From Sedimenticola hydrogenitrophicus (GTDB lineage Bacteria > Pseudomonadota > Gammaproteobacteria > Chromatiales > Chromatiaceae): a DNA stretch of 35,354 nt. The stretch lies in NCBI RefSeq assembly GCF_025175675.1, contig NZ_JANIOA010000043.1:1-35354 (forward strand), read 5' to 3'. Numbering within the stretch: the first letter of the stretch is position 1; the number at the start of each line of letters is the position of its first letter. Shown piece by piece: positions 25,350 through 34,724 of the stretch. The notes beneath the pieces are model-generated. The model was not told where the DNA came from. It saw nothing but the letters and a program-made list of their open reading frames with translations, and searched no databases. Made by a program: the position numbers and the translations under genes.

Positions 25350-28178
25350 ATGTCGGCAGACTACACGGCATTAAAAGACGAACTGGCCGGTTTCATCGAC
25401 CCGGCGCGGCTGATCGATGATCCGCTGCGTACCCTGGCCTACGGCACCGACGCCAGTTTCTACCGGCTGATACCGAAGCTGGTGGTGAAGGTGAATGACG
25501 AACCCGAGATGGTGCGCATCCTGGCGGCCGCGCACCGTTTCCACACCCCGGTTACCTTCCGCGCGGCCGGTACCAGCCTCTCCGGGCAGGCAATCAGCGA
25601 TTCGGTGCTGTTGTTGCTATCTGGAGAGTGTTGGCGCGGTTATACGCGCAATGAAGACGCCTCTGTTATCCGCCTGCAGCCGGGGGTGGTGGGCGCCTGG
25701 GCCAACAGCTACCTGGCACCCTACCGGCGCAAGATCGGCCCTGATCCCGCTTCCATCAACGCGGCCAAGATCGGTGGCATCGCCGCCAACAACGCCAGCG
25801 GCATGTGCTGCGGCACGGCCCAGAACAGCTATCATACCCTGGCCAGCCTGCGCGTGGTGCTGGCCGACGGCACGGTGCTGGATAGTGCCGAGCCGGCCTC
25901 GGTGGCCGCCTTCCGGGAATCCCATGGCGAGCTGCTGTCCGCGCTCTCCACGCTGGCGGCGGAGACCCGCGCCAATGCCGAGCTGGCGGAACGTATCCAC
26001 CACAAGTACCGGCTGAAGAATACCACCGGCTACAGTCTCAATGCGTTGATTGATTTCGAAGATCCGATCGAGATCCTGCAGCACCTGATGATCGGTTCCG
26101 AGGGCACGCTGGGCTTCATTTCGGAGATCGGCTACCACACGGTCGCCGATCACCCCTGCAAGTCCACCGCCCTGATCCTGTTTCCCACGGTGGAGATCGC
26201 CTGCCGGGCGGTGGCGCTGCTCAAGCGGACGCCGGTAACGGCGGTGGAACTGATGGACCGCGCCGCCCTGCGTTCGGTGCAGGAGAAGCTGGGGATGCCG
26301 GTCTGGCTGCGTGAGCTGGATGACGAGGTGGCCGCCCTGCTGGTGGATGTGCGGGCGGCGGACGAGGCAACGCTGAAGTGCCAGGTGGTGGATGTCGGCC
26401 AGGCTCTGCAACCGATCCCACTCGTTCGGGAGGTGGAATTCACAGCGGACCCGACGGCCTACCAGGCGCTGTGGAATATCCGCAAGGGGCTGTTCCCGGC
26501 GGTGGGCGCGGTGCGTACCCCCGGAACCACCGTGCTGATCGAGGACGTCGCCTTCCCGGTACCGCAACTGGCGGCAGCGGTGAGAGGGCTGCATCAACTG
26601 TTTGAAAAGTACCACTATCAGGAAGCGCTGATTTTCGGTCATGCCCTGGAAGGGAACCTGCATTTTGTCTTCACCCAGGACTTCGGCAGCGTCGAGGAGG
26701 TGCAACGCTATCAGGGTTTGATGGACGAAGTGTGTGCATTGGTGGTGGGCGAGTACGGCGGCTCGCTGAAGGCCGAACACGGCACAGGACGCAACATGGC
26801 GCCGTTCGTGGAGATGGAGTGGGGCAGTGATGCCTACCGGTTGATGTGGCGGCTGAAAAAGCTGTTCGATCCCGCCAACCTGCTCAATCCCGGGGTCATT
26901 CTGAATGACGACGCCGAGATTCATCTGAAGAACCTTAAACCGCTGCCGGCGGCGGATCCGTTGATCGACAAGTGTATCGAGTGCGGTTTCTGCGAGCCGA
27001 TCTGTCCGTCGCGCAACTTGACCCTGACACCGCGCCAGCGCATCGTCTCCTGGCGCGAGATATCACGCCTGAAACGAACCGGTGATGATGCCGAACGACT
27101 GCAACGGTTTGAAAATGATTTCGTCTATCAGGGGCTGGATACCTGCGCGGTGGACGGGCTCTGCGCCATCGAATGTCCGGTGGGCATCGATACCGGCAAA
27201 CTGACCAAACAGATACGCCAGAGCCGGCAGGGTGAGCGGGCAGCCCGTGTCGGTGAGTGGGTCGACGGGCATTTCGCCGGCGTCGCCGCCATGACCCGGG
27301 CCGGACTGAAACTGGCCGCGCTCTCCCAGGACCTGTTGGGGGATGGGCTGATGGGTAAAACCACCGGCCTGATGCGGCGTCTGAGCGGTGAGCGTATACC
27401 GCAATGGAATCCGTCCATGCCACGCGCGGCGGGTCCACTGCAACCACCAGTCAACGGGACGGGCGCATATAACGGCACGGTGGTCTATTTCCCCAGTTGT
27501 GTCAGCCGCACCATGGGACCGGCCAACGGCGATCCGTTCCAGGCCGATCTGCATGAGGTGATGCGGTCGCTGCTTGCCAAGGCCGGTTACCGGGTGATTC
27601 TCCCGCAGCGGCCGGAAGGTCTCTGCTGTGGCATGGCGCTGGAGAGCAAGGGGCTACCGGAACAGGCGGGGCAAAGCCTGTATCGCCTGGAACAAGCGTT
27701 GTGGGACGCCAGCGAGCAGGGCCGCCATCCGATCCTGTGCGATACCAGTCCCTGCACCTTGCGCATAATCGAGCATATAAAACAACCGTTGCGGATCCAA
27801 GAGCCGGTGGGCTTCATCAATAGTCACCTGTTGCCGCATCTGCGGCGCCAGGAACAGCTGGAAAGCATCGCTCTGCATATTACCTGTAGCAGCCGCAAGA
27901 TGGGGCTGGCCGACGCCATGCGCCAACTGGCGGAGCAGTGTGCACGGCAAGTGTTTATTTCGGAGGACAAAGGGTGTTGTGGGTTTGCCGGTGATAAAGG
28001 CTTTACCCGACCTGAGTTGAACGCCTCGGCCTTGGGACGGTTGTCCGGATCACTGCCACAACACTGTGAAATGGGCGTCTCCAACAGTCGCACCTGCGAG
28101 ATCGGTCTATCGCTGCATGCCGGTCTCTCCTATCAATCCATTGTCTACTTGGTGGACCGCTGTTTTTCCGCCTGCTGA
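25350..28178 (+). CDS. FAD/Fe-S D-lactate dehydrogenase (Dld-II/YdiJ type)
   Basis: The 942-residue enzyme joins an FAD-binding PCMH oxidase to an iron-sulphur part. FAD-domain motifs are VTFRAAGTSLSGQAI, GPDPASINAAKIGGIAANNA, MIGSEGTLGFI and, in the oxidase C-terminal domain, IFGHALEGNLHFVF and LKAEHGTGRN. Two clusters follow at about 541 (CIECGFCEPICPSR) and 599 (CAVDGLCAIECPVGIDTG), then two CCG motifs near 758 (CCGMALESKG) and 875 (CCGFAGDKGF). Shewanella Dld-II, encoded beside lldEFG, has the same build and length and oxidises D-lactate to pyruvate; E. coli YdiJ is longer and acts on 2-hydroxyglutarate-like acids. Context favours D-lactate. Its last 37 codons are repeated in decayed form at 32278. 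Confidence 0.92.
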   Translation: MSADYTALKDELAGFIDPARLIDDPLRTLAYGTDASFYRLIPKLVVKVNDEPEMVRILAAAHRFHTPVTFRAAGTSLSGQAISDSVLLLLSGECWRGYTRNEDASVIRLQPGVVGAWANSYLAPYRRKIGPDPASINAAKIGGIAANNASGMCCGTAQNSYHTLASLRVVLADGTVLDSAEPASVAAFRESHGELLSALSTLAAETRANAELAERIHHKYRLKNTTGYSLNALIDFEDPIEILQHLMIGSEGTLGFISEIGYHTVADHPCKSTALILFPTVEIACRAVALLKRTPVTAVELMDRAALRSVQEKLGMPVWLRELDDEVAALLVDVRAADEATLKCQVVDVGQALQPIPLVREVEFTADPTAYQALWNIRKGLFPAVGAVRTPGTTVLIEDVAFPVPQLAAAVRGLHQLFEKYHYQEALIFGHALEGNLHFVFTQDFGSVEEVQRYQGLMDEVCALVVGEYGGSLKAEHGTGRNMAPFVEMEWGSDAYRLMWRLKKLFDPANLLNPGVILNDDAEIHLKNLKPLPAADPLIDKCIECGFCEPICPSRNLTLTPRQRIVSWREISRLKRTGDDAERLQRFENDFVYQGLDTCAVDGLCAIECPVGIDTGKLTKQIRQSRQGERAARVGEWVDGHFAGVAAMTRAGLKLAALSQDLLGDGLMGKTTGLMRRLSGERIPQWNPSMPRAAGPLQPPVNGTGAYNGTVVYFPSCVSRTMGPANGDPFQADLHEVMRSLLAKAGYRVILPQRPEGLCCGMALESKGLPEQAGQSLYRLEQALWDASEQGRHPILCDTSPCTLRIIEHIKQPLRIQEPVGFINSHLLPHLRRQEQLESIALHITCSSRKMGLADAMRQLAEQCARQVFISEDKGCCGFAGDKGFTRPELNASALGRLSGSLPQHCEMGVSNSRTCEIGLSLHAGLSYQSIVYLVDRCFSAC

Positions 28179-28270
28179 GCAGACGTTCGTCGAGTCGTAT
28201 CGCCGTTAATGAAAGGAGTTTTTATCGAGTAAGCCGTACAACAACAAACCACAAGCATGATGGAGAGAGG

Positions 28271-29257
28271 ATGAAAACCATAACAGCCATATCATTGGCG
28301 CTGTCCCTGCTAGTCCTTGCCGGCAGGGTATCCGCAACGGATATCCTGGTGGTCGAAAGTTATCACCAGTCCTACTCGTGGGATGCCAGTTACACCCAGG
28401 CATTGCGTGAGGAACTGGGTAAACAACACAACCTGGTCTTTTTCCAGATGGATACCAAGCGTCTGCCAAAAAGCGCGCATGCGACGCAGGCCGAAAAGGC
28501 CTGGGAGGCCTATCGGCAACTGAAACCGTCCCTGGTGATTCTGGGGGATGACAATGCGCTGAAATATCTTGGTCCGCGGCTGGCCGCCGAGCCGGTGCCG
28601 GTAGTCTATCTGGGTATCAACAACAATCCGCGCAGTTACTTTGATACGGCGCCGGGAAATTTTACCGGCGTTTTGGAGCGTCCGCTGTTCAAGCGCTCGA
28701 TCGCTTCCCTGTCGAAAATATTGAAACCCCGACCGAAAAAAATCCTCTTGCTGTTCGATGCAGGAACCACGGCGCGGGCGGCGGTCAGTGAAGCCTTCGC
28801 GGGAAATATCTGGGTCGATGTGTTCGGCGTGGCGGCCAAGGTGCGCCTGATCAGGAGCTGGGTCGAGTGGAAGGTGCAGGTTAGCGAGGCCCGCCGGCAC
28901 GGTTATGACGCCATCATCGTGGGGCTGTACCACACCCTCACCGATATCCAGGGCAATAACATCGCCGCGGAGCGGGTGATGAGCTGGACTACCGAACATG
29001 CTCCGGTGCCGCTGTTCGCGTTCTGGGACTTCAGCGTCGGCCGGGATATGACGGCCGGAGGTCTGGTGCTCAGTGGAGAAGAACAGGGACGGATGGCGGC
29101 GGCGATCGCACGGCAGATCCTGGCCGGTACCGAACCCTCGCGTATCTATCCGAAGACTGCCCAACAGGGCCGCTACCTGTACAGCCGCAGCCGGCTGGCG
29201 CAGTACGGCCTGACACTGCCGGCGGAAATCGAACGCGTCAGCAGTTTGATCGAATAG
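28271..29257 (+). CDS. Periplasmic ABC-type substrate-binding protein (PF04392-like)
   Basis: The 328-residue protein has a signal peptide (about 1-22, ending RVSA) and a type I periplasmic-binding fold of the ABC_sub_bind/TrpX kind. DILVVESYHQSYSWDASYTQALREEL opens the fold, and LVILGDDNALKYLG, PVVYLGINNNPRSYF and PLFAFWDFSVGRDMTAGGLVLSGEEQG are the typical hinge and binding loops. GGAGAGAGG precedes the ATG. No permease or ATPase gene is next to it. Instead a membrane HAMP protein and a chemoreceptor follow, so it may deliver a ligand to a sensor rather than to a transporter. The ligand cannot be read. Confidence 0.85.
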   Translation: MKTITAISLALSLLVLAGRVSATDILVVESYHQSYSWDASYTQALREELGKQHNLVFFQMDTKRLPKSAHATQAEKAWEAYRQLKPSLVILGDDNALKYLGPRLAAEPVPVVYLGINNNPRSYFDTAPGNFTGVLERPLFKRSIASLSKILKPRPKKILLLFDAGTTARAAVSEAFAGNIWVDVFGVAAKVRLIRSWVEWKVQVSEARRHGYDAIIVGLYHTLTDIQGNNIAAERVMSWTTEHAPVPLFAFWDFSVGRDMTAGGLVLSGEEQGRMAAAIARQILAGTEPSRIYPKTAQQGRYLYSRSRLAQYGLTLPAEIERVSSLIE

Positions 29258-34616: not shown

Positions 34617-34631
34617 CACTTGGCTATTAAC

Positions 34632-34724
34632 CGAACATATAAGCGTCACCGTCCATGAGATCAACCGCAGTATCGAACAGGTGGCGCAGGAGGTGACCAA
34701 CAGCCAACCGGTCACCATCATCGC
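34632..34724 (+). pseudogene. Decayed 3' fragment of the chemoreceptor gene
   Basis: Bases 34632-34716 are about 87% identical (11 mismatches in 85) to 31886-31970 near the end of the chemoreceptor gene. The conceptual peptide [19 protein letters not shown] matches [19 protein letters not shown]. The match fades after a one-codon deletion near 34715. No receptor sequence precedes it. A frame from this fragment opens into the next gene, but that gene has its own start. Confidence 0.88.

Follow-up and report, generated by a model that had tools for sequence, protein, structure and literature searches.

Probable remnants of a decayed tandem copy downstream of a sensory gene set in Sedimenticola hydrogenitrophicus

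Downstream of an intact sensory gene set of Sedimenticola hydrogenitrophicus lie two short remnants, one of the 3′ end of its dehydrogenase gene and one of the 3′ end of its chemoreceptor gene, within a window of 35,354 nucleotides (nt) that is one entire contig (C71) of the 4.71 Mb genome. That a local second copy existed and later decayed is well supported, and we put at roughly 60% the probability that 32154-32392 and 34632-34716 are all that is left of a tandem second copy that subsequently underwent neutral decay, insertion and deletion; that the entire 4-kb set was duplicated at once is likely, though short of proof. The genome (G000) was compared with those of eight congeners (G001-G008), of which the nearest relative at the locus is G006, a member of the same genus with 97% identity in the binding protein.

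The two remnants and their parent genes

The resident genes and the remnants, all on the plus strand, are as follows.

25350-28178 (+): intact FAD-linked oxidase / 4Fe-4S / CCG dehydrogenase, 942 amino acids, parent of the first remnant
28271-29257 (+): substrate-binding protein (ABC_sub_bind), 328 amino acids
29279-30013 (+): 244-amino-acid protein, called the HAMP protein in the first-pass annotation
30162-32051 (+): intact chemoreceptor (MCPsignal), 629 amino acids, parent of the second remnant
32154-32274 (+): 5′ part of the dehydrogenase remnant, in a different frame from the 3′ part and resembling the G002 orthologue
32275-32392 (+): dehydrogenase remnant, 3′ part including the stop codon, 84% identical to 28065-28182
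34632-34716 (+): chemoreceptor 3′-end remnant, 87% identical to 31886-31970

Direct comparison recovered both remnants as ungapped direct repeats, 28065-28182 with 32275-32392 (118 nt, 84%) and 31886-31970 with 34632-34716 (85 nt, 87%), in the order and on the strand of their parent genes. The first-pass annotation had described the same order and orientation and had placed the remnants at 32278-32388 (about 84% identical to 28068-28178) and 34632-34724 (about 87%), which agrees closely with the present result; the second remnant is 87% identical ungapped to 34716, extends beyond it only to 34724 (84%, with three gap positions) and ends about 80 nt short of the parental stop. The dehydrogenase remnant needed the larger correction, its 3′ part being as claimed and its true length about twice that, starting near 32154. 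Aligning the resident set (25350-32051) against the downstream block (32052-35354), much as had been proposed, gave 116 and 94 bits for the two remnants and 28.3 bits for the next best match; the highest score among 40 mononucleotide shuffles was 32.6 bits, by which chance matching is rejected. At E≤0.01, comparison of 1-32051 with 32052-35354 revealed, besides the two remnants, only 30 bases belonging to a dispersed repeat, and no fragment of the genes upstream of the dehydrogenase was found in the block.

The neighbouring genes are also the best matches of both fragments within the genome, among the candidates scored in searches at E≤0.001 (40 of 135, 40 of 51, 8 of 28 and 9 of 35 of the first-look set); the other matches of the block were repeats, and an origin from other chemoreceptors or dehydrogenases of the genome, which the first-pass annotation had named as an alternative, found no matching source among those candidates. 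In searches of the eight congener genomes, the resident orthologue of G006 matched both fragments and the G002 dehydrogenase matched the first; a more sensitive local comparison added the dehydrogenases of G001, G008 and G004 for the first fragment and the G001 chemoreceptor for the second. No congener was found that carries both fragments but lacks the set.

Differences between remnant and parent are spread evenly over the three codon positions (6/7/6 in the 3′ part of the first remnant, 2/4/5 in the second). The first remnant has a stop and a change of frame, whereas no interruption occurs in the 85 nt of the second; the even distribution together with the frame change and stop indicates decay under little or no constraint. 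The two divergences (19/118 and 11/85) are similar, as had been noted at first pass, and both are neutral in pattern. They exceed the neutral expectation since the split from G006, the fourfold distance between G000 and G006 being about 0.09-0.10 for the three sensory genes and 0.05 for the signalling part of the chemoreceptor. At two sites the chemoreceptor fragment has the base of G001 where G000 and G006 both have another, and at sites where G000 and G006 differ it agrees once with each. The divergence and the G001-like sites suggest that the event predates the split of the resident genes of G000 and G006.

The 244-amino-acid protein has no Pfam match at E≤0.001 and only weak NCBIfam matches to sensor kinases. 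A second binding protein in the genome was sought and rejected, as there is a single match genome-wide. Elsewhere in the window, the chemoreceptor core at 31554-31673 has an inverted counterpart at 12593-12712 (88%), which probably belongs to a second chemoreceptor on the minus strand.

A mosaic dehydrogenase remnant and a replaced resident tract

The 5′ part of the dehydrogenase remnant resembles the G002 orthologue more than its own resident gene, with 73/118 identical sites versus 54/118, and the remnant as a whole aligns with the G002 dehydrogenase at 69% identity over 224 columns, back to 32154. When 32052-32274 was searched alone by local BLAST, a collinear G002 match was found at 32154-32261 (E 1.2e-5, equalled by 0 of 100 shuffles), with no real match to the resident gene (E 0.66); among the seven orthologues tried, those of G007 and G004 gave weak matches (equalled by 1 and 6 of 100 shuffles, respectively) and those of G000, G006, G001 and G008 gave none. 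At informative sites, defined as those where G000 and G006 agree, G002 differs and the remnant carries one of the two bases, the remnant sides with G002 at 25 and with G000/G006 at 6 before 32275, versus 2 and 16 from 32275 on, a switch of affinity with a Fisher p of 2.7e-6. Topology tests on the 5′ part (185 alignment columns, including a misplaced stretch before 32154) rejected sisterhood with G000 by the approximately unbiased (AU, 5000 resamplings; 0.017), Kishino-Hasegawa (KH; 0.026) and Shimodaira-Hasegawa (SH; 0.027) criteria, and favoured G002.

The corresponding tract of the resident gene, 27942-28062, is unusually distant from G002 (13/18 fourfold sites differ, versus 113/391 in 25350-27940; p 2.6e-4) and does not differ from G006 at any of 20 fourfold sites. 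The identity of the G000 dehydrogenase to that of G006 is 82-91% before 27942 and 96% from there on, with a step from 82% to 98% at about 27941 and fourfold differences at 106/424 sites before and 2/38 after about 27941 (p 0.004). In the transporter and dehydrogenase upstream (23849-27941), 25-32% of the fourfold sites are different in G006, compared with 5-9% past about 27941. On sequence comparison, position 27941 or thereabouts is likely to be a recombination boundary, and the simplest reading would be that 27942-28062 was replaced in, or exchanged between, the lineages of G000 and G006 after the remnant had separated. The fragment seems to retain a version of the dehydrogenase end that is absent from the resident gene, by which the second copy looks older than the resident's present tail; the relic thus seems to keep an older dehydrogenase tail than the gene from which it derives. 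A bolder proposal, which we hold to be possible and somewhat doubtful, is that the relic is the sole record seen in this lineage of the original dehydrogenase tail, the resident tail having been overwritten by transferred DNA common to G006, such that the pseudogene would track vertical descent better than the gene does. In G002 itself, the dehydrogenase is followed not by a binding protein but by a membrane protein (L069:7458-8342) that looks by eye like an auxin-efflux-type carrier.

The same data could be read in the opposite direction, with the tandem pair made by transfer: a foreign block of dehydrogenase tail, binding protein, HAMP protein and chemoreceptor would have joined the dehydrogenase gene near 27942 and displaced the native tail to a downstream position, where it decayed, so that the fragments would be native and the resident set the newcomer. 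The step in G000-G006 identity at about 27941 does coincide with the parental start of the fragment homology (about 27943), and the 5′ part of the fragment is G002-like. However, the 3′ end of the fragment resembles G000 and not G002, and the set adjoins ureG in G001 also, so the genus probably had it natively. It could just as well be the upstream transporter and part of the dehydrogenase that form the unusual block, since G000 and G006 are 91-97% identical in long matches across 1-20000. Transfer is an unlikely origin of the pair, though one to be taken seriously.

Congeners, the ureG junction and the weight of the evidence

An orthologue of the binding protein (at least 70% identity) is present in five of the eight congeners, at one place in each, and the DNA on the 3′ side of the chemoreceptor is readable in two of these five (G006 and G001). 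The chemoreceptor gene overlaps the convergent ureG by 11 bases in G006 and is separated from it by 26 bases in G001; the urease cluster faces the chemoreceptor in both. In G000, ureG is at the start of another contig (C75:120-755), facing outwards, and its C-terminal end differs from that of G006. The G000 chemoreceptor is thus no longer directly followed by ureG. We infer that C71 and C75 are neighbours, in which case the chemoreceptor and ureG are 3.3 kb or more apart, counting as far as the C71 end. An exact join of the two contigs was considered and rejected, because their 4-base end overlap is within chance and the joined 17-mer is nowhere in the assembly; the adjacency is accordingly taken solely from the gene order of G006 and G001.

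Several observations weigh against a tandem copy of the whole set. The binding-protein gene, the HAMP gene and the first 90% of the chemoreceptor gene have no match above the shuffles in 32052-35354, the detected homology to the set amounting to about 324 of the 3303 nt of the block. A second set was found in none of the eight congeners (two of which, G004 and G007, are only 65% and 78% complete, respectively), including the five that have the set, so the strain with two full copies that the first-pass annotation had suggested seeking is found in 0/8, with the 3′ side readable as described. In G006, which would be expected to share so old an event, the chemoreceptor-ureG junction is clean, and this calls for either exact loss or later exchange. 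When a tandem copy is lost through recombination between the repeats, the original junction is restored exactly, and for that reason an older duplication is compatible with the G006 arrangement. The 5′ extension of the dehydrogenase remnant is only about 62% identical to G002, and the remnant pieces are short. For the 3′ part, sisterhood with G000 was the best topology and none was rejected; with both parts joined, G000 sisterhood was not rejected by AU (0.057) but was rejected by KH (0.042) and SH (0.046). Finally, at 32377-32379, close to where the first fragment ends on its 3′ side, apparently derived bases are common to G000 only, not G006; these speak against an event before the split of the resident genes, though gene conversion could explain them.

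The scarcity of homology invites the explanation that the two pieces come from short local duplications that occurred independently, or are scars of recombination, without a second full set ever having been present. Both pieces are gene ends and the interior has no survivors, but their common order, orientation and source and their similar neutral divergence would have to be coincidence, and we regard this origin as quite improbable. The decayed tandem duplication proposed at first pass is upheld in the local origin of the fragments, the order and strand they have in common, their similar divergence and their neutral decay, and falls short as to the binding-protein and HAMP genes, of whose presence in the second copy no trace was found. 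Similarly, a single event of about 4 kb agrees with the similar divergence, and the interior genes and the congeners offer nothing further for it; we nevertheless think it likely that the complete set was present in the second copy and that a single duplication produced it.

Sequences in the gap and a proposed course of events

The space between and after the remnants, all features again on the plus strand, is occupied as follows.

32392-32452 (+): piece of a dispersed palindromic repeat, adjoining the end of the first remnant
32453-32683 (+): tail of the Y2_Tnp (IS91-type) kind, consisting of the last transposase codons and the sequence after them
32796-33770 (+): LuxR-type (GerE) regulator, 324 amino acids, G+C 49%
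34095-34616 (+): small putative lipoprotein with a lipobox-like LLAAC (by eye), G+C 59%
34744-35151 (+): 135-amino-acid open reading frame (ORF), G+C 40%, right after the chemoreceptor remnant, with a Shine-Dalgarno-like AAAGGAG (by eye)

The G+C content of positions 1-32051 is 61%. The occupation of the space by a LuxR regulator and a lipoprotein, as first described, is supported as filling by unrelated genes, to which the IS91-type tail and the repeats must be added. The LuxR-type gene has no DNA match in any of the eight congeners, in three of which the protein was also sought; among 96 family genomes (its own included), the best outside match listed covers the DNA-binding end only (E 8e-10). 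Relatives of the gene are found on 12 plasmid records, and the 8 of 12 listed are 24-28% identical. For neither the lipoprotein gene nor the 135-amino-acid ORF was a DNA match found in the eight congeners, and the latter has no NCBIfam match. No RNA element was found by an Rfam search of 28000-35354 at gathering scores, and none of the titles listed by a literature search on Sedimenticola and pseudogenes concerned the locus.

The palindromic repeat matches G000 at 31 other places and is also present in G006, G002 and G005. Next to it, 32453-32683 aligns with the ends and downstream tails of two Y2_Tnp genes in G006 (contig C32), Y2_Tnp being a marker of the IS91 family. In this alignment it is like the ends of IS91/IS801-type elements, and it differs from them in being decayed and truncated; there is no Y2_Tnp match in G000, so that 32453-32683 is a tail remnant only and not an element. 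Further solo tails of this type are at G000:C92:2747-2892 and G000:C89:84883-85073, and G003 has three tail copies. The proximity of the tail to the dehydrogenase fragment raises the question of whether an IS91-type element carried the fragment there by one-ended rolling-circle transposition, since IS801 can mobilise adjacent DNA fragments (PMC3189936). The same source concludes that most IS801 fragments stem from rearrangement. Moreover, the body of the element is missing, tail and fragment are separated by a different repeat, and no comparable element turned up next to the chemoreceptor fragment; carriage by an IS91-type element is very improbable.

Two further repeats were observed in the window. 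The sequence at 35255-35318 is a dispersed repeat, which elsewhere occurs as inverted pairs about 60-105 bases apart, and it may account for the end of the contig just after it. Another, of about 160 bases (2333-2495), recurs many times in G006 and once or more in G002.

If the remnants do derive from a tandem second copy, it would have lain between the resident chemoreceptor and ureG, reaching from the 3′ end of the dehydrogenase to that of the chemoreceptor, and would then have lost its function and undergone neutral decay. Dispersed repeats and an IS91-type element would have been inserted, most of the copy deleted, and the low-G+C genes (LuxR regulator and small ORF) and the lipoprotein gene acquired. 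At some time after the copy arose, about 120 nt of the resident dehydrogenase (27942-28062) may have been swapped for a divergent version common to G006, while the relic would have retained the older one. Natural transformation can make merodiploids (PMC3784515). The locus shares with decayed bacterial tandem duplications of merodiploid type, as generally known, the direct order and orientation, the neutral pattern, the frame change and stop, and the repeats in the gap; it differs in that two ends only survive and in that the first remnant seems to carry older sequence than the resident's present tail.

The locus is an ordinary pseudogene relic within known genome decay, with no wider functional consequence apparent, and is uncommon in that the pseudogene seems older in sequence than the gene. 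It is a small worked example of the disappearance of a tandem copy, in which the surviving ends still order the event against a later exchange in the resident gene, and it illustrates that percent identity between remnant and parent can mislead on age if the resident gene has been partly replaced.

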